A stretch of 47,944 bases of DNA from Candidatus Aquidulcis sp. Lineage in GTDB: Bacteria > Chloroflexota > Anaerolineae > Anaerolineales > UBA4823. The translations under genes and the position numbers were made by a program. This document shows, piece after piece, positions 179 to 47,874 of the stretch. The DNA is taken from positions 1 to 47,944 of the forward strand of contig DYIZ01000030.1 in the NCBI GenBank assembly GCA_020723385.1, read 5' to 3'. Each line of letters opens with the position of its first letter. The stretch's first letter is position 1. The notes under the pieces were generated by a model. It had not been told where the DNA came from. It was given only the letters and a program-made list of their open reading frames with translations, and ran no database searches.

Positions 179-817
179 TTACCGTTTCGGCTGGCAAGCT
201 ACGGCGACAATCTCCTCCAGAGATTCGCTAAGGCCGCTGCCTGCCTCGCTCGCAATCAACTTTTGGAGGCGCTTTCGAGCTGTCTTGCGCTCACCATGCG
301 TGAAAACCAGTTTGACCAGATCGCCATAGTACAGAAAAGCCAGGAGTATCTTTTCAGATAGCTCCGGATCTTGGCCTGCCAGCAGAATTCCCCGCAAACG
401 GTTTTTCAGGCCATATTTGACTGATATATTTCCTCCGGCGTTTTCACCAGATGGGGCCACCAATTGCAGCCGCTTTTTCTTCCGGGTCAGAATCCCCTGC
501 TCTACCAGTTGATGGCCCACTTCGTCGCCAAGCTCCTGATAGGTCAGGGTGTTGATCCAGTATTTCAGCTTCCGCGGCCGGGCTGAGTCGAGAATATCAA
601 ACAGGGCTTTATCCAAAACAGGGTGGCCCATGGGGGTTTGATCGGTAACGACAATCCGCTCATCTGCCAGCTCGATGCGCTTTTCCAAAACCAGCTCTAC
701 CAGAACTGCCCCCGCGAGAGCGGATTCTACATCGTTCGCAATCGATTTGACAATCTCGCCATCCGCTTCATCCAATGCCAGGAGGAACAACGCTTCGAAG
801 GTTTTGATCATATTCAT
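179..817 (-). CDS. GPP34 (GOLPH3-like) family protein
   Basis: A 212-residue soluble protein with the GPP34 pattern: an N-terminal segment ETFEALFLLALDE-like (here KTFEALFLLALDEADGEIV), then LAGAVLVELVLEKRIEL, a middle region with TDQTPMGHPVLD, and a C-terminal helical part with YYGDLVKLVF and many basic residues. Eukaryotic GOLPH3 binds PI4P on Golgi membranes; the bacterial role is unknown, so I infer only a peripheral, lipid-surface-associated protein. Its ATG overlaps the stop of the upstream coiled-coil gene (ATGA). A second ATG two codons in (811) is better spaced from the AAAGG. It is the last gene of the PHO-box-preceded unit. A paralogue lies at 47155-47874 and a decayed third copy near 8.2 kb. 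Confidence 0.8.
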   Translation of the reverse strand: MNMIKTFEALFLLALDEADGEIVKSIANDVESALAGAVLVELVLEKRIELADERIVVTDQTPMGHPVLDKALFDILDSARPRKLKYWINTLTYQELGDEVGHQLVEQGILTRKKKRLQLVAPSGENAGGNISVKYGLKNRLRGILLAGQDPELSEKILLAFLYYGDLVKLVFTHGERKTARKRLQKLIASEAGSGLSESLEEIVAVACQPKR

Positions 818-1563
818 ACCTTTGAGTGTGCGGCCTGTTCTTCGAATTCTCTCAATTGAACCATCTGGGTGCGAATTTTTGCCAGCAGGCCAGGCAGCTC
901 GGTGCGGATGGCTTTCACATCCAGAATTTGCACACGGATGATATCGGTTTGCAGCTCGTCTAGCGCGCTGGACAGGCTAGTGAGCTGCGCATCAGAGCGG
1001 TCGAGCAGTACCGTGATGGCTTGCATATTAGCAATCCGCACCTGCAAAGCCCGGCGGGTTTCCTCATATTCCCTTTTTACCATCGGGTCGGAGGTGGCTG
1101 CGATTTTCTGTTCCACCTGCGCCAGATCATCCGCCGGGTTTCGGTTGGCTTGCGTCACCAGGCGGTGGTTTTCGAGGGCTGTCATCCGCACGCACAAACT
1201 GTAGGCCCGGTCGGTCAATTGCCCGATGGCATCCTGGACAGGTTGCAAGGCGCGCCTTACATTGGGTTTCGCCGAAGTGAGGGCATTGAACACCGCAACC
1301 TGGCTGCGTTCCACACGGTCGAAGCGCTCCTGAAAACGTTTGGTGAGGGAGGTGCGCTGCTGCACGGTGTGACGCAGGCGCAGCGCCGGGTCACGATAGA
1401 CCAGGAGAAACATGATCCCCCATAGCAGGAGACCCAACGGGAAAAAGACCCACCACGAGCAAAGCCCGGCCGCGGCGGCCAGCGCCAACACAGCCAGGTT
1501 GAGCGGATGCAGCAGGGCCGCCACGAAAGGGGATGGAACGGTATCGAAAGGATTGCGAAGCAT
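814..1563 (-). CDS. Membrane-anchored coiled-coil protein of unknown function
   Basis: A 249-residue protein. Residues about 18-58 form two closely spaced hydrophobic segments (LLHPLNLAVLALAAAAGL and WVFFPLGLLLWGIMFLLVY). The rest is charged and helical with heptad-like Leu/Ile/Val spacing (VEQKIAAT, ALDELQTDIIRVQ, LLAKIRTQMVQLREF), pointing to a cytoplasmic coiled coil. I do not recognise the family; it has some general likeness to the all-helical TelA/toxic-anion-resistance type, but no diagnostic motif. The start lies 6 bp after the stop of the SBP-VWA gene and the end overlaps the GPP34 start, so it is translated as part of that operon. It may link the VWA protein outside to GPP34 inside; that is inference. 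Confidence 0.6.
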   Translation of the reverse strand: MLRNPFDTVPSPFVAALLHPLNLAVLALAAAAGLCSWWVFFPLGLLLWGIMFLLVYRDPALRLRHTVQQRTSLTKRFQERFDRVERSQVAVFNALTSAKPNVRRALQPVQDAIGQLTDRAYSLCVRMTALENHRLVTQANRNPADDLAQVEQKIAATSDPMVKREYEETRRALQVRIANMQAITVLLDRSDAQLTSLSSALDELQTDIIRVQILDVKAIRTELPGLLAKIRTQMVQLREFEEQAAHSKV

Positions 1564-1569
1564 AGGCGT

Positions 1570-3237
1570 TTAGAAGAAAGTGGCGATTTCTGAGTAGATT
1601 TTGTTGATGTTCTCCGGCGTGCTGTCGTATTGCTTGCCGCCGGTGGCTTCGGCAATCTGCTTGAGGATGTCTTTATCGGCATCATCACCGAAAGCTATCG
1701 TAAACATCTTGATGGCGTTACCGCCCTCCAGGTTGCCGGTTCCAATGACCGCCAGCACATCGTTCAACGTTTTCTCTGAAGCGGTATCCTGCCCATCTGA
1801 CAGGATCACGATGCTGCGAATGTGTTTGGGATCAGCTTTATCCTGCAATTCCTGATACGCCAGCAGCGTGGCATCATACAGCCGGGTGTTGCCGCTTTCG
1901 ATGATCCCCGAAACGCGCGTTATGGCATCCTGGCGTTTTTCGCTCACCGGGGACAAATCGGTGAGAGTGAGCAGATCGCTGTTAAACGTAATGATCTCGA
2001 TCCGATCACGGTCATCCAGCAAACTGATGAACTGCATCAGGCTACTGCGCGCCGCCGTGATTTTCGAGCCAGCCATGCTGCCCGAAGTATCCACCACCAA
2101 GACCAGATCCACCGGCTTTTTGACCTGTTTCCAGAGCGCCTCGATCGCCGAGATCACCTCGGCCGGGGGAATCTCGAGCACCGTCTTGGGCTGGGCGGGA
2201 TCAACCCCATGTTGGGGATCCAATGGCGAGGTAAGCGGGATAGACGGGTCTGCCGGGCGGAAACCCAGCTCGATGGCTTTGAGCTGCTGAGGCTTATCGA
2301 GCAAGAAAGCCTCGAAATCCTGCGCGGCTGCTTTGTGTTCTGCGGTGACCCAGGGCGCGTTGAGAATGGCATACGGGTGGTTCGACCAGAACGTGCCCTC
2401 TTTAGGGTAGATCGCCGCTACCGGAAGCTGCTGGCTGGTTCCTTCGATGCGCTTGCTTTCCTGCGCAACCACCAGGTTTTCGTACATCACCGCCGCGCTC
2501 AGGTAAGATGGGCCGCGCTCGAACATGCGGTCAGCGAAGAAGCCGGTGCTCACGCCGTAGTGGATGATGCTGCTTTCCACAGCAACCATAAACTGGCTGA
2601 CCTTGGGATCGTTCAGATCGTCCAAGGTCAGGCCGCGCTGCTTGCCTGCGCCGGCGTAGGCCTCGGCAATGATCGAAACAATGCCGCTGTTGCTGTAGCC
2701 AGGATGGGTATGCCCGAACTTGAAGACGCCCCATTCCGGGTACCCATAGGCCGCCCAACCTTCGTCGGAAACCGCCAGCCCGGCGATATCAGCCCAGCCA
2801 AGCTGTTTATCGGGCCATCCCAGAGCGCGCGCCATCGGCTCCCACATCGCAATCACCACCGGGCTGAGCACCAAATCCTTGGGATTGTCCGCGACAAGAT
2901 CATCAGAATGGGTTTTGCGCCACTCGGCGTTCGCTACCGGCACGTATACGGAGGATGCCGGACTCCACACAGTCGGCTGCATGGTTCCGCCGATGATCGC
3001 ATCCACCGATTCGATAGACCCCATGGGGGTCGCTTCGACCACGATGGTCGAACCCTCGGCGGTCTTGTGATTGGCCGCATTGTATTCCGCCACCAGCGGC
3101 TCGAGCCAGGCCTGCTTTTCCGAGCCATACACGATACTGACTGTGATCTTCTTGCCAAGCGAAATGCCGCCCTGGCAGGCTGAAATAAGCAGTGAAAAAG
3201 TCATCATTACGGCTAATGTAACCTGTAAGCGTTTCAT
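1570..3237 (-). CDS. Lipoprotein: extracellular substrate-binding domain fused to a VWA domain
   Basis: A 555-residue protein. It starts with a lipoprotein signal (MKRLQVTLAVMMTFSLLISAC; lipid-acceptor Cys21). Residues about 30-340 form a periplasmic binding domain (VSIVYGSEKQAWLEPLV, WSPASSVYVP, GYPEWGVFKFGHTHP, WSNHPYAILNAPWVT). Residues about 375-555 form a VWA domain with an intact MIDAS start D383-T-S385-G-S387 and a later SDGQDTAS. It should be a cell-surface protein that binds a ligand through one domain and a metal-dependent partner through the other. No ABC permease or ATPase gene is nearby. It follows the paralogous binding protein (3298-4506) by 60 bp and is followed by the coiled-coil gene after 6 bp. 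The binding domain resembles the SBP_bac_11 group; the ligand is unknown. Confidence 0.85.
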   Translation of the reverse strand: MKRLQVTLAVMMTFSLLISACQGGISLGKKITVSIVYGSEKQAWLEPLVAEYNAANHKTAEGSTIVVEATPMGSIESVDAIIGGTMQPTVWSPASSVYVPVANAEWRKTHSDDLVADNPKDLVLSPVVIAMWEPMARALGWPDKQLGWADIAGLAVSDEGWAAYGYPEWGVFKFGHTHPGYSNSGIVSIIAEAYAGAGKQRGLTLDDLNDPKVSQFMVAVESSIIHYGVSTGFFADRMFERGPSYLSAAVMYENLVVAQESKRIEGTSQQLPVAAIYPKEGTFWSNHPYAILNAPWVTAEHKAAAQDFEAFLLDKPQQLKAIELGFRPADPSIPLTSPLDPQHGVDPAQPKTVLEIPPAEVISAIEALWKQVKKPVDLVLVVDTSGSMAGSKITAARSSLMQFISLLDDRDRIEIITFNSDLLTLTDLSPVSEKRQDAITRVSGIIESGNTRLYDATLLAYQELQDKADPKHIRSIVILSDGQDTASEKTLNDVLAVIGTGNLEGGNAIKMFTIAFGDDADKDILKQIAEATGGKQYDSTPENINKIYSEIATFF

Positions 3238-3297
3238 GCTCTATCTCTCCTAAATTCCAGCAGCCTGAGTGCCGCTATTTGTGACCCGCTGTGCTTG

Positions 3298-4506
3298 TTA
3301 TCGCTGCACGTTACGCGACCAAAATTCGAGCAGTGTGTTGAGCACATTGCCGGACGGGACCTCCACCGTGGGTAAGCCCGAAAGATCAGCCTGGAAACCA
3401 TTGGCGGTATACCGCTCGAATGGGCTGCCGGGTTGAGTCAAGACAACGGATGGATCCACCGGGCGAAAACCGTATTTCATCAAAGCAATTTCCTGCACCG
3501 GCTTGCTGGACAAATAGTCAATGAACAGATTGGATGCCTCGGCTTTTTCGGGCGTCACCCAGTCGGCGTTGAGCACGCAGAATGGATGGTCGCTCCAAAC
3601 GGTGGCGGGCGGGTAATACACGCGCAGCTCGCCGTAACGTCCCACGGCATTCTCGGCTTGCTCGATGGCTGTCGCTTCGTAGACAGCCACCATATCGAAG
3701 GTGCTCGGGCCGTAGGCAACCATCTTCTGCATGAGCGGGCCAGTGCTTTGCTCGAACTGGGTGATGGTACTCTCGAAATCCAGGAACCACTGTTGGTAGG
3801 CTGTATCCGAAAGGATGTCGGCAGAAGTCAACCCGCTGGTTTTTCCAATGTAGTTGTAGGTCATCAACAGGATGGTCATGAACCCACTGTTCGATTTCAA
3901 TGGGTCGGTGTGACCGAACTTGAGATAGCCCCATTCAGGATGACCGTAGGAATTCCAACCCTGCGGATTGAGGACAGCTTCTTGAAGCCGGGTCCACATG
4001 TGGCTGTTTGGATTGCCCCCCCATAACACATCGGCGCGCTCTTGCCAGGCTACGACCACCAATGGGGTGGTTACGATCGAGCGGCAGGATTGCCTGTCAG
4101 CCAGGTTGACCACCGGAACCGGGAATTTCCCGGCCGATTGATCTTGCAGGATGGCGATTTGCAGTGAGCTAGCCGGGCTGATCACGTCGGGTTTACGCGT
4201 CCCGTCGAGTACGGACAAATAAATCTCGCGCGAGCCCATCTTTTCCAGCGTCACCTGCACCGGGCGGCCATTGACACGGGCATCCGACTTTTCGAAATCG
4301 GCGATGACTTCGTTGAGCCAGGCTTCTTTTTCAGTGGAATACAACACCGAGATTTCGATCGGTTTTGGCTTGGGCAGGATCCAATCGCGCAGGGGCGCAT
4401 AGAAGGTCTGGCGCAGCGCAGGGGAAATCAACGCCACGACAAAGATGACCAGAACAGTGAAACTGTAGAGGATGAAAATGGCCCAATTGGCCCGAGGGGT
4501 GTGCAT
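3298..4506 (-). CDS. Membrane-anchored extracellular substrate-binding protein (paralogue of the SBP-VWA lipoprotein)
   Basis: A 402-residue protein with an uncleaved-looking N-terminal membrane segment (WAIFILYSFTVLVIFVVALI, about residues 8-27) and no lipobox. The rest aligns by eye over its whole length with the binding half of the downstream gene: VLYSTEKEAWLNEVIADFE, SPASSLQIAI, GHPEWGYLKFGHTDP, WSDHPFCVLNADWVTPE and KYGFRPVDPSVVL. It has no VWA domain. It is the first gene of the operon running 4506 to 179. A perfect TATAAT (4555-4560) and four 11-bp-spaced PHO-type repeats (4597-4634) lie upstream. A ribosome-binding site is not obvious. The ligand is unknown; phosphate or another oxyanion is an inference from the promoter. 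Confidence 0.8.
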   Translation of the reverse strand: MHTPRANWAIFILYSFTVLVIFVVALISPALRQTFYAPLRDWILPKPKPIEISVLYSTEKEAWLNEVIADFEKSDARVNGRPVQVTLEKMGSREIYLSVLDGTRKPDVISPASSLQIAILQDQSAGKFPVPVVNLADRQSCRSIVTTPLVVVAWQERADVLWGGNPNSHMWTRLQEAVLNPQGWNSYGHPEWGYLKFGHTDPLKSNSGFMTILLMTYNYIGKTSGLTSADILSDTAYQQWFLDFESTITQFEQSTGPLMQKMVAYGPSTFDMVAVYEATAIEQAENAVGRYGELRVYYPPATVWSDHPFCVLNADWVTPEKAEASNLFIDYLSSKPVQEIALMKYGFRPVDPSVVLTQPGSPFERYTANGFQADLSGLPTVEVPSGNVLNTLLEFWSRNVQR

Positions 4507-4653: not shown

Positions 4654-4706
4654 CCAAATTTTGGGGTATGCGGGCGGCTCCGCCGCCCGCATACCCCAAA
4701 ATTTGG
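4654..4706. repeat. Perfect inverted repeat, 25-bp arms with a 3-nt loop
   Basis: The arms 4654-4678 and 4682-4706 are exact reverse complements around TCC. The outer half is AT-rich (CCAAATTTTGGGGTA) and the inner half GC-rich (TGCGGGCGGC). It lies 80 bp after the stop of the PstS-like gene and 20 bp before the PHO box of the next unit. It could end transcription of the upstream unit, but no T-run follows on the minus strand, so it may instead be a mobile palindromic (REP/MITE-like) unit. Confidence 0.75.
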
Positions 4707-4785: not shown

Positions 4786-5613
4786 TTATTTGACCGGCGC
4801 CCAACCAAATTCCTCGACCAGTTTTTGACCCTCTGCACTGAGAGTGAAATTGATGAAATCGTTGGCGAGCGGCTGAGAGAGCGGGCCGGTGAGCAACAGC
4901 AGCGGGCGGGTGAGCGGGTAGGTTTTTTGGGCCGCGGCAACCTCGGAGGGGGCAACCCCGTTGATCTGAATGGCTTTAACCGAAGGCTCCAGGTTGCCAA
5001 AGCCCACATAGCCGATCGCGGCGACATCGCTGCTGACCAGAGCCGCCATGTCGCCAGCCGTCACGGTGGTGCGCAGGCCGGGAGCTGTCGGTTCCTGCTT
5101 TTCGAGGACAAGCTCGTCGAAAGCGCCGCGCGTCCCCGAGCTTTTTTCGCGCGCCACTGGAATAATCGTCTCATCAGGGCCGCCGACATCCTTCCAGTTC
5201 GTGATCTTGCCCATGTAAATGTCAGCGAGTTGTTCGATAGTCAGGTTTTCCACCAGGTTGTCGGGATGCACCACAATCGCAATCACATCGGTGGCGATTT
5301 GGAATTGATTGATCCCCTGGGCTTCCTCCGCACTCAAAGCCCGCGAAGCCATCCCAATGTCCACCGAACCATCATGGACCGCCTGAATCCCAACCACAGA
5401 GCCGCCGGCGGCGATATCGAGCGTCACCTGTGGGTTTGCCTCCTGGAATGTATCGCCGATTTTAGCGATGAGCGGTTGGAGGGTCGTGCTCCCGGCGAAA
5501 GTCAGCTTCCCGATCAACGGCGTCACTGTCGGGGGCTGAGTGGTAACCGGTTGGCGCTGGCAGGCTTCGAGGGCCAGCAAAGCGATCAAAAAAAAACCGA
5601 TCAACTTTTTCAT
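4786..5613 (-). CDS. PstS-like phosphate-binding lipoprotein
   Basis: A 275-residue protein of the PstS family, the extracellular phosphate-binding component of Pst uptake. A lipoprotein signal MKKLIGFFLIALLALEAC gives lipidated Cys18. Family motifs follow: AGSTTLQPLIAKIG, the IAAGGSVVGIQAV loop, VDIGMASRALSAEEAQG, YMGKITNWKDVGG, and the phosphate-contact loop REKSSGTRGAFDELVL. The length is normal. Its start overlaps the stop of the upstream histidine kinase (ATGA), so sensor and binding protein are translated together. No pstCAB genes are in the window, so it may act as a stand-alone sensor partner or serve a transporter encoded elsewhere. Confidence 0.85.
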   Translation of the reverse strand: MKKLIGFFLIALLALEACQRQPVTTQPPTVTPLIGKLTFAGSTTLQPLIAKIGDTFQEANPQVTLDIAAGGSVVGIQAVHDGSVDIGMASRALSAEEAQGINQFQIATDVIAIVVHPDNLVENLTIEQLADIYMGKITNWKDVGGPDETIIPVAREKSSGTRGAFDELVLEKQEPTAPGLRTTVTAGDMAALVSSDVAAIGYVGFGNLEPSVKAIQINGVAPSEVAAAQKTYPLTRPLLLLTGPLSQPLANDFINFTLSAEGQKLVEEFGWAPVK

Positions 5614-7910
5614 TGAGTTACCTCCGGTGCATGAGTTGTCTTTTCATTGCTTGTTTGTTTGATGGGCAGGACGAATGAGAAGGTCGAGCCGGCTCCGAGG
5701 GTGCTTTCAGCCCAAATTTTTCCGCCGTGCAGCTCGATGAGATAGCGGGCAATGCTCAACCCCAGGCCAGTGCCGTCATACCGGCGGCTGGAGGAGCCAT
5801 CTACCTGCGAAAATGGACGGAAGAGTTTATCTATATCATCGGGAGCAATCCCTATGCCGGTATCCTTGATGTTGATGACCACCCATTGAGGGTTATAGAT
5901 CGCCGAGATCGAAACACATCCCGAACGAGTGAACTTGACTGCATTCGACAGCAGGTTGCGCAGCACCTGGCGCAGGCGCGCCACATCGCCTTGAATTGAA
6001 GGCATGTGAGTGGATATGTCAAGCTCCAACCGGATGGGTTTGTCGCCGATCCATTCCTCGATCTGCCCGGTCATCCCAATGATCTCGCGGCGCAGATCAA
6101 CCGGCTGAATATTGAGCGACATTTGCCCGGCTTCGATGCGCGAAAAATCCAAGATGTCGTCAATCATACTCAATAGATTCTGACCGCTTTCATAGATCGC
6201 GTTCAGATCGCGCCCTTGAACTTCATTCAATGGGCCATCCAAGCCCTTGATGAGCACCTTTGAAAAGCCGATGATCGCGTTGAGCGGGGTGCGCAGCTCG
6301 TGCGTCACCGTGGAAAGGAATTGGGATTTCAGGTGATCAATCTCGGCCAAGCGGCTGGCGATCTCGCGCTGCTGGCGGAATAATTGGGCATTCTGTATTG
6401 CCACTGCGACCTGCGCCGAAAGGGTTGTAAATGTTTCGAGCAGATCGGTTGTAAAGACCTGGGTTGATGCAGCCTGGATATCGAGTGCGCCGATGACGTT
6501 GCCAGCGTGTACGAGAGGGAAAACTGCTTCGGCGCGGGTATTGGGAAGCATCGGATGAGGCAGGTAAGTCTTCGATAGGCTTATATCCTGGGTGATGATC
6601 GCCTGCCCAGTTTGAATGGTGTTGGTGACATGCGAAACCCGGTTGAGCGGCAAAGAAAGATAGGTGTTGTCATCGAAGATATCGCCCACCTGGCCGGTGG
6701 CGGCGCGTAAGACCGCCGAGGATTTGTCTGGCTCGACGATGAAAACTCCCGCAAAATAAAAGCCGAACTGTTGGCAGATCATATCTACCGTGGTTTGCAG
6801 AACCGTTTCCATCTCCAGGCTGGAGTTGGCAGTGCGTGCGACCGCCGATGCAGCCGCCAGTTGCAGCGTGCGCGCGGCGACTTTTTGTTCCAGGCTGTGT
6901 GTCAGGTCACGCAGCTCGATCAACATGCTGCTGAAAGCAGTCGTGAGCTGCCCAATCTCGTCGTCAACCCCAATATTCAACAGAGATTTTGGCGAATTGA
7001 CCGGTTGGATAACGTCGAATTCATGGTAGATAGCAACCGCCTGGGCAATACGCGCCAACTCGCGGATGGGTTCAATCATGGCAGGGGTGATCCGGCTGGC
7101 AAGCGCCAACAGCAACCCGGTGGTCAGCAGCGAGCTGGCAATCATCACCAGCAGACCTGTCTGGGTCACTTGGGTGATTTCGGCAGTCCGCCGCCGTACA
7201 ACCAGTGAGGCCATGGAATCTCCCAGTTGAAGAGGCCGCTCGCGGCTGATGGCAGCCTTCTCGTCAAGTACATCTCCGGCTGGCAGGCTGCTCTCCTCGA
7301 TATTTGCGAAGCGAACGAACAAATCGGCAACCAATCTTTGATCCGAGGCGATGCGCGCCAGCTCGCTCCCCAGGTCAATGCCTGTGATGATCACGCCGCC
7401 CCCGTTTGGAATCGAGCTTCGGGAAAGCAGCAATAGATTTCCGTCAACAGCTACCACGGTTGTGGTGTTGGTTGGGATTTTGTCGAGCAGCGATGAGACG
7501 CGATACAACTCAGCCAACACCAGGTTTGCCCAGGCCTCCCCGGATGGGCTGTAAACCTGGATGAGGTCCAACTGGAACCGGCTGCGTACCAGCACAGCCC
7601 GTTTGTCAATCACGGCCAGGTTAGCCTCAGTCTTAGATTGAAGGGCCTGGATCAAATCGGGGTCGGCAGCCAGGATGCCAGCAGCGCTGCGCACGATATC
7701 CACACGCCCGGCAAGCGACTGGCTGATCTGGATTTGATCCTGCTCGATTTGTTGATTCAGAAGCTGATTCCGGGTTAGCAATGTCCCCAACCCGAAAGCA
7801 AGTGTGCTGGTCAGCAGCGAGGCCAGCATCAGCACTGTAATTGGAAACAATAATTTCGCATTGAGCGAGCGGAGTCTCAGGCGGTTCTTGAGGGATGAAA
7901 GGAAAGACAT
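5610..7910 (-). CDS. Membrane sensor histidine kinase (extracytoplasmic sensor, HAMP, GAF, HisKA, HATPase)
   Basis: A 766-residue kinase. A first membrane helix (about residues 17-45) and a second (about 250-270) enclose an extracytoplasmic sensor region of about 200 residues. HAMP (PIRELARIAQAVA) and a linker follow, then a GAF domain beginning near SSLEMETVLQTTVDMICQQF. The HisKA box THELRTPLNAIIGF carries phospho-acceptor His537. The catalytic domain has N-box NLLSNAVKF, G1 DTGIGIAPDD and G2 GTGLGLSIARYL. The length is normal for a hybrid-free GAF kinase. No response regulator is adjacent. The coupled downstream PstS-like gene and the four-repeat PHO box upstream suggest a PhoR-type role, but the ligand and partner are not shown by the sequence. 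Confidence 0.85.
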   Translation of the reverse strand: MSFLSSLKNRLRLRSLNAKLLFPITVLMLASLLTSTLAFGLGTLLTRNQLLNQQIEQDQIQISQSLAGRVDIVRSAAGILAADPDLIQALQSKTEANLAVIDKRAVLVRSRFQLDLIQVYSPSGEAWANLVLAELYRVSSLLDKIPTNTTTVVAVDGNLLLLSRSSIPNGGGVIITGIDLGSELARIASDQRLVADLFVRFANIEESSLPAGDVLDEKAAISRERPLQLGDSMASLVVRRRTAEITQVTQTGLLVMIASSLLTTGLLLALASRITPAMIEPIRELARIAQAVAIYHEFDVIQPVNSPKSLLNIGVDDEIGQLTTAFSSMLIELRDLTHSLEQKVAARTLQLAAASAVARTANSSLEMETVLQTTVDMICQQFGFYFAGVFIVEPDKSSAVLRAATGQVGDIFDDNTYLSLPLNRVSHVTNTIQTGQAIITQDISLSKTYLPHPMLPNTRAEAVFPLVHAGNVIGALDIQAASTQVFTTDLLETFTTLSAQVAVAIQNAQLFRQQREIASRLAEIDHLKSQFLSTVTHELRTPLNAIIGFSKVLIKGLDGPLNEVQGRDLNAIYESGQNLLSMIDDILDFSRIEAGQMSLNIQPVDLRREIIGMTGQIEEWIGDKPIRLELDISTHMPSIQGDVARLRQVLRNLLSNAVKFTRSGCVSISAIYNPQWVVINIKDTGIGIAPDDIDKLFRPFSQVDGSSSRRYDGTGLGLSIARYLIELHGGKIWAESTLGAGSTFSFVLPIKQTSNEKTTHAPEVTQ

Positions 7911-15194: not shown

Positions 15195-16199
15195 TCATGG
15201 CATTTTGGCCAGGGCTACGATCAGGACGACATTGCCCTGCCGGCCCCCCGATTCGATATAGCGGTGGGCTTCGGCGGTTTGCTCGAGCGGGAATCGTTTG
15301 TCTACGATGGCTTTTATTTTTCCGGCTTCGGCCAGATCTTTCACCAGCAGCAGGCTCGCCGTTTTTTCTTCGGTCATGGCGCAGATGACCTTTTGGGGGC
15401 TGGCGAGGGAAGTCCAGAACATGTCCCAGAGCGCCTGGCCTTTGAAGCTGGCGAGCAGGTAGATACCGTTGGGGGTCAGGGATTTTTTACAGCGCGCAAA
15501 GGAACTGCGCCCCAGGATGTCGAAAATCACATCGTAGGTTTCGCCATTTTGGGTGAAATCCTGTTTTTTGTAATCAATCACCTTGTCTGCGCCGAGGGCT
15601 TTGACGTAGTCGAGGCGCGGCGTGCTGCACACCCCGGTCACTTCTGCCCCGTAGTGATGTTTAGCAAGTTGGACGGCCATCGCGCCGATGCCGCCGGAGG
15701 CGCCATTGACGAGGATTTTTTGCCCCGGCTTGAGCCTGGCCTTTTGCAGCAGGCCGACGGCCATGACCGCCCCGTAGGGCAGAGTGGCGGCTTCAGCGTA
15801 GCCCATATTGACAGGCTTGATGGCGATGGTCCCGCTTTCGGGCAGGCAGATGTATTCAGCATTGGCGCCCATCTTCATCCCCACGTAGGCAAAGACCTGG
15901 TCACCGGGCTTGAATTTCGTCACTAGGCTGCCAACTGCTTCCACGTCCCCGGCCAATTCGCTGCCGAGAATGTTGATTTTGGGCTTGTTCCATCCAAAGG
16001 CCATACGCGCCGGCAGGTAAAGCGGGGCGGGCATGTTGAACTGGCTGTGGGCGAAGTCCCGCGCCGTCAGGTCGCCGTAGTTAACCGGCGTGGCGCGCAC
16101 CCGCACCAGGATTTGGTTATCTTTGGGGGTGGGCTTGGCAACTTCTTTGAGCTGCAAAACATCTGGGGAGCCGTATTCAGTGAAAACAATGGCTTTCAT
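15195..16199 (-). CDS. Zinc-less MDR oxidoreductase (quinone oxidoreductase-like), copy 1
   Basis: 334 residues. N-terminal GroES-like domain MKAIVFTEYGSPDVLQLKEV; Rossmann part NGASGGIGAMAVQLAKH, then EVTGVCSTPRLDYVKALGADKVIDYK; C-terminal IVDKRFPLEQTAEAHRYIESG. The catalytic and structural zinc ligands of classic alcohol dehydrogenases are missing, as in zeta-crystallin/QOR enzymes, so NAD(P)H-dependent reduction of quinones or enones is likely. It is the last gene of the six-gene unit beginning at 18952 and starts next to the end of the SDR gene. Three paralogues sit at 19594, 21759 and 23447. Confidence 0.88.
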   Translation of the reverse strand: MKAIVFTEYGSPDVLQLKEVAKPTPKDNQILVRVRATPVNYGDLTARDFAHSQFNMPAPLYLPARMAFGWNKPKINILGSELAGDVEAVGSLVTKFKPGDQVFAYVGMKMGANAEYICLPESGTIAIKPVNMGYAEAATLPYGAVMAVGLLQKARLKPGQKILVNGASGGIGAMAVQLAKHHYGAEVTGVCSTPRLDYVKALGADKVIDYKKQDFTQNGETYDVIFDILGRSSFARCKKSLTPNGIYLLASFKGQALWDMFWTSLASPQKVICAMTEEKTASLLLVKDLAEAGKIKAIVDKRFPLEQTAEAHRYIESGGRQGNVVLIVALAKMP

Positions 16200-19593: not shown

Positions 19594-20559
19594 CTATACA
19601 ATCGTGATGACCACTTTGCCGCGGGCGTGTCCTGCTCCAAGATAGCGCAGCGCTTCTGGGGTCTCGCTCAACGGGTAGCGCTTATCGATCACCGGGACAA
19701 TTTTTCCAGCTTCCAACATCTTTTTGAGCGTCAGCAAATCCTTCTGGTCAATATGCGCCGCAACGCCTCCCAGCTTCCGACCGTTTTTCTCTGACAGCCA
19801 GTTTCCCAGGAGCATGGCCTCGAAGATTTGTGCCGGCTTGCCTCCGGCCATGATGTACATGCCCTTGGGGGTTAACGCCCGTTTGTACGCGGCCAGCGGG
19901 TGGTAGCCGTTGGCGGCAAAAATCAGGTCGTACTGGCGCCCGCTTTGGGTGAAGTTTTCTTGAGTGTAGTCTATGATGTGGTCTGCGCCGAGTTCGCGGG
20001 CCTGTTCCAGGTTGCGGGTGCTGCACACTGCGGTGACTTCGGCCCCGAAGGCTTTGGCAATCTGCACCGCGAAAGTTCCCACCCCACCAGCCGCGCCATT
20101 GATCAGTACCTTTTGCCCCGGCTGGATTTTCCCTTCATCGCGCAGACCCTGCAGGGCAGTGAGCGCGGCCATCGGTACAGCCGCGGCTTCATCAAACGAT
20201 AGATTGGCCGGTTTCAGCGCCAGTTTACTTTCAGGAGCGCATACATACTCGGCAAAACCGCCGTGACCAATATCCCCAAAGACCTCATCGCCTGGCTGAA
20301 ATTGCTCGATGTTTCTGCCAACCGCTTCAACCCGCCCCGCTATGTCAGCGCCGAGGCGCGTGTTTTTGGGTTTGAGCAGTCCCCCGCCCATCAGGCGGAT
20401 CAAGAAGATGTCCGCGGTCAGGAAATGCCAGTCATAGGCATTGACGGAGGCCGCGTAAATTTTTATCAAGACCTCATCATCCTTGGGCGCAGGTTTTTCT
20501 ACATCCTGGAGTTGGATCACATCCGGTGATCCGTATTTTTCATAGACAATCGCTTTCAT
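19594..20559 (-). CDS. Zinc-less MDR oxidoreductase, copy 2
   Basis: 321 residues. MKAIVYEKYGSPDVIQLQDV at the start, NGAAGGVGTFAVQIAKAFG Rossmann turn, VTAVCSTRNLEQARELGADH and the C-terminal KRYPLSETPEALRYLGAGHARGKV. No zinc ligands, so QOR-like. It is somewhat further from the other three copies, lacking their GVCST form (AVCST here). It lies 36 bp after a DUF4386 gene, and GAAGGAG precedes the ATG. Confidence 0.88.
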   Translation of the reverse strand: MKAIVYEKYGSPDVIQLQDVEKPAPKDDEVLIKIYAASVNAYDWHFLTADIFLIRLMGGGLLKPKNTRLGADIAGRVEAVGRNIEQFQPGDEVFGDIGHGGFAEYVCAPESKLALKPANLSFDEAAAVPMAALTALQGLRDEGKIQPGQKVLINGAAGGVGTFAVQIAKAFGAEVTAVCSTRNLEQARELGADHIIDYTQENFTQSGRQYDLIFAANGYHPLAAYKRALTPKGMYIMAGGKPAQIFEAMLLGNWLSEKNGRKLGGVAAHIDQKDLLTLKKMLEAGKIVPVIDKRYPLSETPEALRYLGAGHARGKVVITIV

Positions 20560-21758: not shown

Positions 21759-22733
21759 TTACTCCTTGTTTTGTACGCTGATGACCACATTCCCGCGCTT
21801 ATGTCCGGTTTCGACGTAGCGGTGCGCCTCGACAATCTGCTCCAGCGGGTAGACCCGGTCAATCACTGGCCTGATTTTTTCCGCTTCGACCAGTTCGCGC
21901 AGAAAATCCAGCCTTTCGGCGGTGCAAATGGACGCGCCGGTTTTGACTTTTTTTCTGGACAGTGATGTGGCGATCATTTGCGGCAGGGCTGAGCGCAGGA
22001 AATCGGTCATGGCGCTGGAAAGATAAACGCCGCCGGGTTTCAGGGCATTTTTGCACTGCGAAAACGAAATTTTGCCGACCGTGTCAAAGATGAGGTCGAA
22101 ATATTCACCGCTGGCAGGAATTTCCTGGCGGGTATAGTCAATCACCCGCTCCGCGCCGATGGATTTGACCATCTCCACATTGGCCGTGCTGCACACCCCG
22201 GTCACTTCGGCGCCGAAGTGCTTCGCCAGTTGCACGGCATACGACCCCACCGAACCGGAAGCGCCGTTGATCAGCACTTTCTGCCCCGGCCTGATTTTGC
22301 CAATGTCGCGCAGGAAGGTCAGGGCGGTCAGCGCCCCATCGGGGACGGCGGCGGCCTGCTCGTAACTGAGATTCGCCGGTTTGCGCGCCAGCCCGGCCTT
22401 TTCGGGCAGGCAGATGTACTCGGCGCAACCAGACATCTGGACCATCGTAGCACTGAACACTGCGCCGCCGGGCTGGAAGCGCCGCACCGACCCGCCGACC
22501 GCCTCCACTTCCCCGGCCATTTCGATGCCCAGGATGGGGTTGCGCGGGCGCTTTAGGCCGAGGATGAGGCGGCTCCAGGTTGGTTCGCCCCGGCGGATCA
22601 GGCAGTCGGTGGCGGTGACGGTGGTGGTGTGGATGCGGATCAGGACCTCATTCGCCCTGGGGGAGGGTTTGGGCACATCCTTCAGCGCAAGCACTTCGGG
22701 CGGGCCGTATCGCTCAACAACAGCCGCTTTCAT
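21759..22733 (-). CDS. Zinc-less MDR oxidoreductase, copy 3
   Basis: 324 residues. MKAAVVERYGPPEVLALKDV, NGASGSVGSYAVQLAKHFG, EVTGVCSTANVEMVKSIGAERVIDYT, and the C-terminal DRVYPLEQIVEAHRYVETGHKRGNV. QOR-like without zinc ligands. With copy 4 it shares the STAN(V/L)E(M/L)VKS string and the DRVYP(L/F)EQIVEAH tail, so these two look like a recent duplication. Its ATG overlaps the stop of the DUF4386 gene upstream. Confidence 0.88.
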   Translation of the reverse strand: MKAAVVERYGPPEVLALKDVPKPSPRANEVLIRIHTTTVTATDCLIRRGEPTWSRLILGLKRPRNPILGIEMAGEVEAVGGSVRRFQPGGAVFSATMVQMSGCAEYICLPEKAGLARKPANLSYEQAAAVPDGALTALTFLRDIGKIRPGQKVLINGASGSVGSYAVQLAKHFGAEVTGVCSTANVEMVKSIGAERVIDYTRQEIPASGEYFDLIFDTVGKISFSQCKNALKPGGVYLSSAMTDFLRSALPQMIATSLSRKKVKTGASICTAERLDFLRELVEAEKIRPVIDRVYPLEQIVEAHRYVETGHKRGNVVISVQNKE

Positions 22734-23431
22734 TTAGCGCCCTCTGGCATGGAATAACCCTTGACGATCAGCCAGACCGCCAGCGCCATTTCTTGCAGCA
22801 TGATCGGGAGCATGAGCAGCATCTGCGGCGGAGAAAATGCTTCAATCAATCCAAACATCCCGGAAAAAGCGCCGATCAACATCAGCAGCAGGCCCAACAA
22901 GCCCCAGGCAGATAACCAGCGGGGCAGGAGCCGGGTTCTGTAAAATACTGCGTAGTAGATGGCCGCCCCAGTACACCAGGGAAGGAGACTGAATCCGTTG
23001 CTCATCCAGTCCCGCACCGATTGGACGACTGCGGCGGCGGGCTGGAAAAAGGAATCGGCTGGGCTGCCAGCCCTGACAAATTCCTGGCTCAAAGCCAACA
23101 GAACCGCCAGACTGACGGCGCTGGCGAGCTGGAGCGTTCCTTCAATGACACGGAAACCCACCACGCCCAGGGCAAGTGCCTCGCCATGGGGTTTAAGAAT
23201 CGGGTACATCGAGATGCCGATCCCGGCGCAGGCCAGGCCCATGAACATGACGCTGAGCGCCAACAGCAACACCTCGTTGCTGTGTGTCGCCATCAGCGAC
23301 AGGTAGTCCGGGGATGAAACGGACTGGCCCCACAAGGACATCGCGGCCATCACCGGGACAGTCCCCAGAATGAATAAGACGCCTGTGATGCGAGCGCTTT
23401 TTCTTGAATAACTCATGCTGTCTGCGTTCAT
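22730..23431 (-). CDS. DUF4386 family membrane protein
   Basis: 233 residues and six to seven helices: RITGVLFILGTVPVMAAMSL, EVLLLALSVMFMGLACAGIGI, YPILKPHGEALALGVVGFRVIEG, NGFSLLPWCTGAAIYYAVFY, RTRLLPRWLSAWGLLGLLLML. The family region YPILKPH and RxxPRWLSxWGLxG is shared with the gene at 24364-25044. It starts 15 bp after MDR copy 4 and overlaps the start of MDR copy 3. Confidence 0.8.
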   Translation of the reverse strand: MNADSMSYSRKSARITGVLFILGTVPVMAAMSLWGQSVSSPDYLSLMATHSNEVLLLALSVMFMGLACAGIGISMYPILKPHGEALALGVVGFRVIEGTLQLASAVSLAVLLALSQEFVRAGSPADSFFQPAAAVVQSVRDWMSNGFSLLPWCTGAAIYYAVFYRTRLLPRWLSAWGLLGLLLMLIGAFSGMFGLIEAFSPPQMLLMLPIMLQEMALAVWLIVKGYSMPEGAK

Positions 23432-23446
23432 TTTTCCTCTTGGCTT

Positions 23447-24367
23447 TTATAGGGTGATAACCACATTGCCTTTTTTGTGGCCCTGCTCCACGTAGTGGTG
23501 CGCTTCGACAATCTGCTCGAAGGGATAGACGCGGTCAATGGCCGGTTTGAGCTTACCCGCTTCGATCAGCTCTTTGAGCTTTAGCAGGTTTTCGAGCTGG
23601 TTGCCGCCATCTGAGTCGGTGTGAACATTAATGTAGACGCCGCCGGGGTTGAGCGCCTTTTTACCCTGTGCAGGGAGTAGTTTTCCAACAGCGTCGAAAA
23701 CCACATCGTAGGCTGCGCCGCTTTGGGTGAAATCCTGGCGGGTGTAATCTATGACCTGTTTCGCTCCCAGCGACTTTACCAATTCCAGGTTGGCCGTGCT
23801 GCACACCCCGGTCACATCTGCGCCGAAGTGGCGGCTGGCAAGCTGGACGGCGTTCGTGCCGACCGCGCCGGATGCGCCGTAGACGAGGATTTTCTGCCCG
23901 GCCTGGATTCTCCCCTTTTTGAGACATTGCAGCGCCGTCATCCCCGCGCCGGGGGCGGCGGCGGCTTCCTCGTAGCTGAGATTCTCCGGTTTAAGCGCCA
24001 GCACGCCATTTTCGGGGAAGCATTTGTATTCGGCGTAGCCGCCAAAATTGACAGAAAAGGTGGAGGCAAAGACCGCCTGGCCGGGCTGGAAGCGGGTCAC
24101 TTTTGCACCAACCGCTTCGATGTCCCCGGCCAACTCCATGCCCAGGATGGGCCGTTTGGGGCCGCGCATCCCCAGGAACAGGCGCGCCATGAGCTTTTGC
24201 ACGCCGGAGATGGGCAGGTTGAAACTGCGCATGATCGTGTCGCCGATGGTGACGGTGGTGGCGCGGACTTTGACCAGCACTTCGTTCGGGCGCGGGGTGG
24301 GTTTGGGCAGGTCTGCCAGGTGCAGCACTTCGGGCGGGCCGTATTGGGTGTAGAGGATGGCTTTCAT
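23447..24367 (-). CDS. Zinc-less MDR oxidoreductase, copy 4
   Basis: 306 residues, the shortest copy. MKAILYTQYGPPEVLHLADL, YGASGAVGTNAVQLASRHFG, DVTGVCSTANLELVKSLGAKQVIDYT, and DRVYPFEQIVEAHHYVEQGHKKGNV. The segment after the Rossmann part is shorter than in the other copies but no core motif is lost. Zinc ligands are absent. Its ATG overlaps the stop of the DUF4386 gene upstream (ATGA). Confidence 0.88.
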   Translation of the reverse strand: MKAILYTQYGPPEVLHLADLPKPTPRPNEVLVKVRATTVTIGDTIMRSFNLPISGVQKLMARLFLGMRGPKRPILGMELAGDIEAVGAKVTRFQPGQAVFASTFSVNFGGYAEYKCFPENGVLALKPENLSYEEAAAAPGAGMTALQCLKKGRIQAGQKILVYGASGAVGTNAVQLASRHFGADVTGVCSTANLELVKSLGAKQVIDYTRQDFTQSGAAYDVVFDAVGKLLPAQGKKALNPGGVYINVHTDSDGGNQLENLLKLKELIEAGKLKPAIDRVYPFEQIVEAHHYVEQGHKKGNVVITL

Positions 24368-25044
24368 TGCGTCACCGCCTTCGGGTTGAAGCCCTTCGCA
24401 ATCAGCCAGACCGCCATGACCATTTCCTGGAAAAAGATGGGCATATTGATCAGGCTGGCGGTGTCATCGTTGACGATTTGGAATATCAGCAAAAAGGCGG
24501 TGGAGAAGTGCAGCAGGATGGCGATAAAGCCCCAGATGGAAATCCAGCGCGGGATGAGTTGCGAGCGGTAGAGCATGGTGTAGAGCATCAGCCCATCCAG
24601 GCTGAAGATGATGGCCAGCACGTTGGCAATGGAATTGTTGCCTTTGATCAAGACCGCGCCCAGGCTTTGCAGGGCAGGCTGGCTGGCAGCCCCGGCGGTC
24701 GCGGCTTCCTGGCTGACGAGCACCAGGAAGAGCCAGCAGATGGCCATGGCGAGATAACAAACCATCTCCAGCGCGCCGCGAAAGACCACGTAGGCCAGCG
24801 CCAGGATTTCGTCGTGGCGTTTCAGGATGGGGTAGAGCAGCACGGGAACCAGCGTCAGCGGCAGGCCCATCATCAGCACCAGTAAAGCGCCGATGCGCAG
24901 GGGGTTGGCATTCGCGGCGATCTGGGCCAGGGGGTCGGATGCGCTGAAGACCGGCTGCGTGACGAGCACGCTGCCCACGCCCGCGGCCGTCCCGATGATA
25001 AAAAAGAGTCCCACGAGGCTGGCAATTTTTCGGTTGGTGTTCAT
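24364..25044 (-). CDS. DUF4386 family membrane protein
   Basis: 226 residues: KIASLVGLFFIIGTAAGVGSVL, ANANPLRIGALLVLMMGLPLTL, YPILKRHDEILALAYVVFRGALE, NVLAIIFSLDGLMLYTMLYRSQL and IPRWISIWGFIAILLHFSTAFLL. Close to the DUF4386 gene at 22730-23431. It starts 3 bp after the 80-residue protein and overlaps the MDR copy 4 start, making the first of two identical-order DUF4386-MDR couples. Confidence 0.8.
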   Translation of the reverse strand: MNTNRKIASLVGLFFIIGTAAGVGSVLVTQPVFSASDPLAQIAANANPLRIGALLVLMMGLPLTLVPVLLYPILKRHDEILALAYVVFRGALEMVCYLAMAICWLFLVLVSQEAATAGAASQPALQSLGAVLIKGNNSIANVLAIIFSLDGLMLYTMLYRSQLIPRWISIWGFIAILLHFSTAFLLIFQIVNDDTASLINMPIFFQEMVMAVWLIAKGFNPKAVTQ

Positions 25045-46453: not shown

Positions 46454-47134
46454 TTACTCCCTGACCGGCAATTTACTCATCTCCCACACGCAGGCTGGAG
46501 CGCCCATGGCGCGGCATTCGACTTCTTTTACATCCACTTCGCGATCTTTGCCAAACAAGCCGTGCAACCCTTCTTGAAAATAACCCGTCCACATGTAACA
46601 GATCGGGCTGTCGGCTTCGAAGCCGCAGCAGCAGCCACACGTCTCCAGCTTGAAAGCCAACTTTTCGCCGCGCTCCTCGATGTGCATAACCAAAGGCTGA
46701 ACACCCTTGTACACAAAAAACCTCTCCATTCCGAATTTAACCAATTCCAGCCCGCGCTTGACGCGCATCCCTTCCGGCAGGAGACGCAAAGCGGTTGTCA
46801 CCGCGCTGCCCAGGGCAGCGTTCAATTGTTCGCTGCCCAATTGCTGCGACACACGCCCAATGCGTATGATCATACTACGCCCCCCGCGCCCAAAAAAGTT
46901 GAGCAACCCCACGTTGAGGCGGGCATACTCGCCCAGTGTATATTTTCCGGAAACGCCAGCAAAATTCTCCGGAAAATTCTCTGTAAAATGGCTCAAGCCA
47001 GCCTGATTTAAAGTAACGATGAGGCCTTGCTTACCGGTCACTTCTTCGGACGCCTGCAACGCCCAGCGAAAGGAACCGTCATGCACTTTGATAGCGGTGA
47101 CAGGATCATGTTGTTGTTTCGGGATAATCTTCAT
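46454..47134 (-). CDS. Cysteine-rich V4R (4-vinyl reductase) domain protein
   Basis: 226 residues. N-terminal helical part to about residue 60, then a domain SMIIRIGRVSQQLGSEQLNA, a cysteine cluster LETCGCCCGFEADSPICYMW, and the typical end VDVKEVECRAMGAPACVWEM. The V4R fold binds small hydrocarbons, and the ExxCRAMGxxxCxxxM ending is its signature. The CGCCCG run is unusual and could hold metal or an iron-sulfur group. The ATG is 20 bp after the GPP34 gene, so they are probably one unit. Confidence 0.78.
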   Translation of the reverse strand: MKIIPKQQHDPVTAIKVHDGSFRWALQASEEVTGKQGLIVTLNQAGLSHFTENFPENFAGVSGKYTLGEYARLNVGLLNFFGRGGRSMIIRIGRVSQQLGSEQLNAALGSAVTTALRLLPEGMRVKRGLELVKFGMERFFVYKGVQPLVMHIEERGEKLAFKLETCGCCCGFEADSPICYMWTGYFQEGLHGLFGKDREVDVKEVECRAMGAPACVWEMSKLPVRE

Positions 47135-47154: not shown

Positions 47155-47874
47155 CTAGTTCGCGTCCGTTATGACCGCTGAGGCCGCCGCTTCAATCTCC
47201 GCCAGGAAATCGGCGACAGCCTCGCCGAAGACCTCGCCGGTGGCCAGGGTTTCCACCCTCTTCTCAGCAAATTTACGCTCGTCGCGGGTGAATACCAGGC
47301 GCAGCAAACGGCAGGCCTGGAGCAGGCTGAGCAGGGCTATATCTTGCGCCTCTGGTTTTTCGCCGGCCAGGGTAATGGCGCGCAGTTTGGATTTCAACCA
47401 ATATTTCGTCGAGCCATCTATTTGTGGATAGACGACCGATGGGGAAATCCAGGAGAATTTTTTCTTCTCGATAGTGATGATGTTGTGTTCTGCCAACCGT
47501 TCGGCGGTTCGCTTGAAGAGGGGCTCGTTTGCCAGGTCGTTGACCAGACGCCCCATTTTGTGCGGCTTTTTCATCGCTGCAATGAGTGTAAGCGCCTGGT
47601 CACAAAGAGAGTCGCCGGTTGGTGTTGCATCTTCAACACGAACACGCTCTTCTTCTGCGACGATTTTGCCCATGATGGCTAACTCAGACAAGATAGCTCC
47701 GGCCAGGCCATAGCGCAGCTTGTTTTTTACGGATGCGGCTATAGCGCCTTGGTCATCGTCAATTGCCAGAATGAACAGTTTTTCTGGAAGCGATAGCATC
47801 ACCGGGGAACTTTTTTTCTTCGACGGGCGAGCTTTGGGTGGGTTTTCTACAGGGTTTTGCTCTAGGGTATCCAT
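47155..47874 (-). CDS. GPP34 (GOLPH3-like) family protein, second copy
   Basis: 239 residues. A basic N-terminal tail (PPKARPSKKKSSPVMLSLPE) precedes the core LPEKLFILAIDDDQGAIAAS, YGLAGAILSELAIMGKIVAE, then DATPTGDSLCDQALTLI and ALLSLLQACRLLRLVFTRDE. The same fold as the copy at 179-817 but with the basic tail added, which could help membrane or lipid binding. AAAGGAAAAAAC precedes the ATG. It leads the V4R gene by 20 bp. No PHO-type repeats are visible in the 70 bp upstream that lie in the window. Confidence 0.82.
   Translation of the reverse strand: MDTLEQNPVENPPKARPSKKKSSPVMLSLPEKLFILAIDDDQGAIAASVKNKLRYGLAGAILSELAIMGKIVAEEERVRVEDATPTGDSLCDQALTLIAAMKKPHKMGRLVNDLANEPLFKRTAERLAEHNIITIEKKKFSWISPSVVYPQIDGSTKYWLKSKLRAITLAGEKPEAQDIALLSLLQACRLLRLVFTRDERKFAEKRVETLATGEVFGEAVADFLAEIEAAASAVITDAN

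Follow-up and report, generated by a model that had tools for sequence, protein, structure and literature searches.

A solute-binding protein (SBP), a second solute-binding protein fused to a VWA domain (SBP-VWA) and a coiled-coil protein (CC) are encoded together in a conserved, patchily distributed module that occurs in several phyla. We favour, at a probability of about one half, the reading that this is a cell-envelope sensing module with no transporter in its operon, which would respond to an extracytoplasmic ligand and act on a lineage-specific output linked through the CC protein. In the stretch analysed here (the window, 47,944 nt, a complete contig from a 239-contig assembly, with the visible DNA ending at position 1) the three genes are followed by a fourth that encodes a GPP34 protein. 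All four ORFs were verified, every one on the minus strand (Table 1). The genes are separated by 60, 6 and -4 nt, where the negative value denotes an ATGA stop/start overlap of 4 nt; this spacing suggests that the four genes are co-transcribed. The first-pass annotation had assigned them to positions 814-4506; the four genes are real, but GPP34, at 179-817, lies nearly all outside that span.

Table 1. Features of the module and the adjoining GPP34 gene in the window.
Feature	Position	Strand	Basis
SBP (P0001), membrane-anchored solute-binding protein, gene 1	3298..4506	-	Pfam SBP_bac_11 5.2e-15; relatives directly upstream of SBP-VWA at many loci
SBP-VWA (P0002), lipoprotein-type solute-binding domain + VWA	1570..3237	-	Pfam; model pLDDT 93.8; fold matches
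Solute-binding domain of P0002, residues 35-318	2284..3135	-	Pfam coordinates
VWA domain of P0002, residues 377-533	1639..2109	-	Pfam; MIDAS residues D383, S385, S387, T451, D481
CC protein (P0003), two-TM hairpin + helical bundle	814..1563	-	Model pLDDT 91.5; profile matches near SBP-VWA only, in the loci analysed
Predicted TM hairpin of P0003, helices 20-35 + 40-56	1396..1506	-	Model; membrane placement inferred from hydropathy
GPP34 (P0004), cytoplasmic GOLPH3-like, lineage-specific gene 4	179..817	-	Pfam 1.2e-37; same position in L087, L097

Two paralogous binding proteins, one fused to a VWA domain with an intact MIDAS, had been described in the first-pass annotation, and this description holds. 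P0001 (402 aa) and P0002 (555 aa) share 32% identity (5e-53); both match Pfam SBP_bac_11 (P0002 at 6e-12), and P0002 also matches VWA (6e-19), with the metal-site residues of the DxSxS, T and D pattern present as D383-x-S385-x-S387, T451 and D481. In the order D383, S385, S387, T451, D481 these are kept in 107, 107, 104, 105 and 105 of 107 SBP-VWA sequences, and the VWA domain is probably metal-dependent. The first domain of the P0002 model folds like the thiamin-binding protein 2qry (Z 27.4, 2.8 A, 283 residues), the sulfate-binding protein 5um2 (Z 26.4) and 6lkg (Z 24.4, 3.4 A, 270 residues), which we take to be HptA, and the second like the VWA domain 4fx5 (Z 25.5, 1.8 A, 174 residues). By sequence, P0001 gave no meaningful match to solved structures, and the P0002 profile matched them through its VWA part alone among the matches listed (60 of 102). 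Since the SBP set (n=79, counting the kinase-SBPs) and the SBP-VWA set (n=107) have 40 positions in common that reach at least 80% conservation in each, the alignments suggest a ligand pocket shared by the two proteins. P0001 has a single N-terminal hydrophobic segment (residues 9-27, simple hydropathy), and P0002 a lipobox-like signal, LISAC, recognised by eye. Judged by simple patterns, 61 of 71 SBP relatives have a TM-type N-terminus and nine more a lipobox, and a lipobox is present in 81 of 116 SBP-VWA relatives.

The CC protein P0003 (249 aa) is modelled as a TM hairpin followed by a helical bundle, and its hydrophobic segments lie at the N-terminus by simple hydropathy; a hydrophobic N-terminal part was also seen in 59 of 63 relatives (simple patterns). 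No Pfam family matched it above cut-off, and a Foldseek search returned nothing at E <= 0.001. The rows against BAR chains are weak (Foldseek E no better than 0.13, Z roughly 9 to 10.6) and fall within the range given by unrelated helical bundles (VIA). XpaC and TelA were considered as candidates for the coiled-coil protein; neither appears in the Pfam listing of P0003, which extends to E 1, and the literature searched held no helpful paper on the idea. Across 1461 called genes, all 67 matches to the CC profiles fell within four genes of an SBP-VWA, an argument that is in part circular because position guided the choice of seeds. Profile comparison joined two CC families (95% probability, E 3e-8), a link to be read with the caution due to coiled coils.

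A relative of SBP-VWA was found in 59 of 400 genomes of the phylum (E <= 1e-60), in 11 of 301 of the order at a strict cut-off (E <= 1e-150) and in 4 of 38 of the family (E <= 1e-40), a patchy distribution across genomes. Beyond these, a scan of named genomes gave at least 572 confirmed candidates, of which the best 80 were used; their records are titled, as deposited, Chloroflexota, Verrucomicrobiota, Acidobacteriota, Myxococcota, Planctomycetota, Proteobacteria and others. Another 40 stretches around phylum-scan matches were chosen by hand for spread. Together with the window and 79 named loci (the eightieth, L113, showed no SBP-VWA), this made 120 loci with a detectable SBP-VWA. Removal of nine duplicates left 111 unique loci, 70 of them named (from the best 80 of at least 572) and 41 others; the locus set forms 101 clusters at 90% identity. 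Since the ORF caller keeps the longest ORFs, the absences counted below are upper bounds: in L141, SBP and CC exist but were hidden. In L139, L153 and L160 the order SBP-VWA > CC > SBP was read from ORFs and places and entered by hand.

Counting neighbours on the same strand within four genes of SBP-VWA, we found an SBP (or kinase-SBP) at 91 of the 111 loci, CC at 69, both at 66 and either at 94; the 17 with neither include some explained by contig edges or ORF-calling losses. For SBP, CC and both, the figures are 67, 50 and 47 of 83 in Chloroflexota, 8 of 9 throughout in Verrucomicrobiota, 7 of 7 throughout in Myxococcota and deltaproteobacterial records (three entered by hand), 2 of 3 throughout in Acidobacteriota, 4, 2 and 2 of 4 in Proteobacteria-labelled loci and 2, 0 and 0 of 3 in Planctomycetota. 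One unplaced record has SBP and no CC, and one labelled Lentisphaera has neither. Because the gene set recurs in several phyla, it is more than a chance arrangement. SBP immediately adjoins SBP-VWA in 73 cases (median gap 25 nt) and CC does so in 53, 50 of them downstream (median 27 nt). The order is SBP > SBP-VWA > CC in Anaerolineae and Chloroflexia, SBP-VWA > SBP > (PspA) > CC > (AAA+) in Verrucomicrobiota and Acidobacteriota, and SBP-VWA > CC > SBP in Myxococcota. SBP-VWA is also found on plasmids: an actinobacterial one carries SBP-VWA followed by a CC gene (5.7e-18), a Thiodictyon one SBP-VWA followed by SBP, and among the genes tested neither the Thiodictyon nor a Streptomyces plasmid gave a CC match. 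Counting against the module reading, the second SBP-VWA of the window's own genome (L038) has neither SBP nor CC alongside; the 17 loci lacking both partners and the patchy distribution weigh the same way.

The fourth gene behaves differently from the other three: the first-pass annotation had made its proposal depend on conservation of the whole four-gene order outside this genome, and SBP > SBP-VWA > CC is indeed widely conserved, but the order with GPP34 barely so. P0004 carries the Pfam GPP34 domain (130.3 bits, cut-off 29.1), the family of GOLPH3/Vps74, and gives a weak match to human GOLPH3 (1e-5). GPP34 follows CC in 3 of the 57 unique-locus CC genes with a visible next gene, namely in the window, L087 and L097; L087, matched to G402 by its place in the contig, comes from another genus of the window's family, which accounts for two of the three cases. 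Among the 400 phylum genomes, 39 have GPP34, of which three also have SBP-VWA (the window's genome, G304 and G325), and GPP34 adjoins the module in the window alone. A reading that we hold to be a little short of an even bet is that GPP34 is a cotranscribed passenger with a membrane role of its own, the three-gene module being the working unit. Its rarity at this position speaks for that, as do the 36 of 39 GPP34-bearing phylum genomes without SBP-VWA at the cut-off used, a second GPP34 gene in the window's genome at 47155-47874, away from the module, and the L097 copy, which groups away from P0004 with moderate support in a small tree. The overlapping stop and start codons of CC and GPP34 in the window count against it. 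So does the pairing of P0004 with the L087 copy as sisters (0.998, small tree): since they hold the same place in two genera at 43% identity, the link is not recent. GPP34 next to CC is thus old in a single family and stands outside the wider module. As to the module's output in the window's lineage, we consider it rather unlikely to be GPP34, and action on lipid through this protein, which the first-pass annotation had proposed, would be drawn from few genomes. That annotation was right about the three genes and only partly so about GPP34.

Other candidate outputs occur at related loci. PspA/IM30 is encoded nearby at 11 of the 111 unique loci (L133, L135, L136, L138, L142, L146, L151 and L155, and in Chloroflexota L069, L075 and L164) and is absent at 100; about one chance neighbour would be expected, as estimated from 4 PspA matches in 6.4 Mb. 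The matches exceed the Pfam cut-off in L133, L142, L146, L069 and L164, that in L075 lies below it (24.8 vs 33.9 bits), and those in L135, L136, L138, L151 and L155 come from a profile seeded from L133, L142 and L146. An AAA+ ATPase (Pfam-tested in L146 and L155) follows in seven PspA loci, that is in 7 of the 8 outside Chloroflexota; L045 has a more distant AAA+ gene on the opposite strand. In eight loci of Ktedonobacteria a Ser/Thr kinase protein carries the SBP as its C-terminal part (Pfam Pkinase 7e-43 in L047), and kinase motifs were recognised by pattern in all eight; two further records, L127 and L165, have partial kinase-SBP ORFs. The run in the window contains no kinase and no PspA/IM30 that would make it a PspA/ESCRT-III-like locus, which counts against the sensing reading, as do the lack of PspA at most loci and the rarity of GPP34 beside CC. 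Four PspA matches in the same genome all lie on other contigs, its PspA clusters C4 and C135 hold no module gene, and the L146 AAA+ protein has a single, partial match there (35%). Flotillin- and NfeD-like genes, named by eye, were seen on C135.

The sensing module that we favour could work as follows. Outside the membrane, the anchored P0001 and the lipoprotein P0002 would bind a related small ligand. The VWA domain would serve as a metal-dependent protein-docking switch, probably joining P0001 and P0002 or touching another envelope protein. P0003, a hairpin through the membrane with a cytoplasmic helical bundle, would relay or anchor the state of the receptor. The output would differ by lineage, being the Ser/Thr kinase fused to SBP in Ktedonobacteria, PspA/IM30, mostly with AAA+ outside Chloroflexota, in other loci, and possibly GPP34 in the window's lineage. 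Topology, complex formation, ligand binding, MIDAS contact and the direction of the signal are all what we infer from sequences, models and neighbourhoods. Since the three-gene order is conserved and ABC permeases are not its usual neighbours, the surface-to-cytoplasm system proposed in the first-pass annotation is plausible, and it gains strength from those relatives whose locus includes PspA or a kinase fused to the SBP. A larger claim can be made tentatively, and we would wager against it at present: that this is one multi-phylum envelope-sensing system of paralogous SBPs, MIDAS switch and two-TM adaptor with interchangeable PspA/ESCRT-III and AAA+, kinase or GPP34 outputs, through which an extracellular ligand controls membrane remodelling.

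The same proteins could instead have a structural or assembly role in the envelope, as a complex devoted to MIDAS-dependent adhesion or to PspA-based membrane stabilisation, with the SBP fold sitting constitutively on wall or lipid fragments and no signalling. VWA domains are docking domains, and both the PspA partners and a putative SBP-OmpA protein in L071 (OmpA match below cut-off) would suit such a complex. We find it doubtful all the same, as the SBP-kinase fusions point to signalling and the retention of two conserved SBP paralogues suggests ligand-gated behaviour.

The absence of ABC transporter genes from the set, noted at first pass, is borne out by the wider sample. No ABC gene was found by Pfam scan in 20 further ORFs of the window (a subset of its ORFs), and across the 108 unique loci the same-strand run includes an ABC ATPase three times (L045, L118, L145) and a permease once (L118), the latter searched with four seed types that rarer types may escape. 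With the nine duplicate loci included and two permease seeds, the scan gave the same numerators (3 and 1 of 117). Permease and ATPase genes alongside the SBP, the mark of an ABC importer, are thus not the pattern at these loci, nor do the genes occur mostly next to ABC permeases, the pattern that the first-pass annotation had set against its own proposal. Since same-strand ABC genes are so few, orphan ABC uptake becomes less likely, and we judged it unlikely from these neighbourhoods. That the SBPs serve an ABC transporter encoded elsewhere, with VWA and CC as accessories, would fit the P0002 folds, which match transport SBPs (thiamin, sulfate, ferric, polyamine), and the ABC ATPase and/or permease genes within five genes on either strand in 15 of 108 unique loci, but it is quite improbable given the same-strand counts, the TM-anchored SBP, the SBP-kinase fusion, the fused VWA, and the divergent sugar-type ABC operons of four of those loci (L058, L059, L060, L064), which bring their own binding protein.

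The closest known kinds of system are binding-protein sensors and PspA partner operons. In HptASR of Staphylococcus aureus, the kinase HptS receives its signal from HptA, which binds extracellular glucose-6-phosphate (PMC8774646). There, as proposed here, a secreted ligand-binding protein acts as sensor for a membrane signalling protein; unlike the module, HptASR has a histidine kinase as output, and the accessible part of that source mentions no VWA, second SBP or CC. A phage-shock-protein survey (Ravi et al. 2024, PMC11237479) describes, in the part available, the pairing of PspA and an AAA+ ATPase, and some of the operons are longer and encode a PBPB-OmpA protein too. Such PspA/Snf7-AAA+ contexts share the PspA and AAA+ partners with our loci, and the L071 SBP gene with its weak OmpA match is comparable to PBPB-OmpA; the constant part here, however, is SBP, SBP-VWA and CC, with PspA a minority partner that the window lacks, and neither 'vWA' nor 'von Willebrand' occurs in the main text of the survey. 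A table in PMC13293324 lists SBP_bac_11-VWA co-occurrence, and no paper describing the fusion or the module was found in the literature searched. A Streptomyces plasmid record gives the product name 'Substrate-binding and VWA domain-containing protein' to a protein with this fusion, at 29% identity across 99% of P0002; it offers a name only, and the literature searched gave neither function nor neighbourhood. For GPP34, the available part of PMC12402492 ties the Streptomyces GOLPH3-like SCO4440, with SCO4439, to peptidoglycan and wall-deficient cells.

If the module does sense a ligand and drive PspA, a kinase or GPP34, it would show binding proteins, coupled to a MIDAS switch, put to use without a transporter. 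Such a module would also supply an external input for PspA/ESCRT-III-like membrane remodelling, a first pathway for bacterial GPP34, and a function for a protein family that databases name by its domains alone.

Two further roles were considered and set aside. None of the four window proteins gave a PADLOC match at 0.001, which led us to reject anti-phage defence; the AAA+ protein of L146 matches IetA (6e-11), taken as a shared AAA+ fold. Histidine kinase or response regulator (HK/RR) type genes within five genes of the module (24 genes at 19 loci, one single-linkage cluster) were judged near chance expectation, and a two-component link was likewise rejected. An exception to this near-chance pattern is seen in L058, L059, L060, L064 and L066, all from one family, where an HK gene follows the module.

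Upstream of the SBP gene lies a hairpin that may be a small repeat element doubling as a transcription end, since similar palindromes occur at four other sites in the same genome. Beyond it, the gene of the PstS-like lipoprotein and that of a GAF-domain histidine kinase share 4 nt; the lipoprotein is a further solute-binding protein without seen ABC genes, and is paired with a signalling protein. At the other end of the window a second GPP34 gene is followed by a V4R-domain gene. V4R is also a TRAPP/Bet3-type fold, so that two trafficking-type folds are neighbours here.

Features in the window and at related loci carrying SBP-VWA (the solute-binding/VWA fusion)
Feature	Position	Strand	Remark
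20-pair hairpin	window 4659-4701		between PstS-like gene and SBP
PstS-like lipoprotein	window 4786-5613	-	upstream of module
GAF-domain histidine kinase	window 5610-7910	-	upstream of module
Zinc-type alcohol dehydrogenases and DUF4386 membrane proteins	window 21759-25044	-	alternating
Additional zinc-type alcohol dehydrogenases	window 15195-16199; 19594-20559
V4R-domain protein	window 46454-47134	-	20 nt downstream of second GPP34
Second GPP34	window 47155-47874	-	38% identity to GPP34 protein P0004
NMT1-type binding protein	L071 3164-4798		between CC and SBP-VWA; weak OmpA match
Peripla_BP_6 (LivK-type) protein	L075 4528-5688		after CC; by eye
Peripla_BP_6 (LivK-type) protein	L164 10570-11739		after CC; Pfam

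Binding proteins and kinases also accompany some related modules. In five loci, all from one Chloroflexota family (L058, L059, L060, L064 and L066), the module is followed by a histidine kinase; four of the five carry a response-regulator-type gene, and four of the five a divergent sugar-type ABC operon. Two PspA-bearing Chloroflexota loci, L075 and L164, have a Peripla_BP_6 protein after CC, the two-TM helical protein. Finally, the NMT1-type protein of L071 is reminiscent of the PBPB-OmpA proteins that a phage-shock-protein survey places in PspA operons (PMC11237479).
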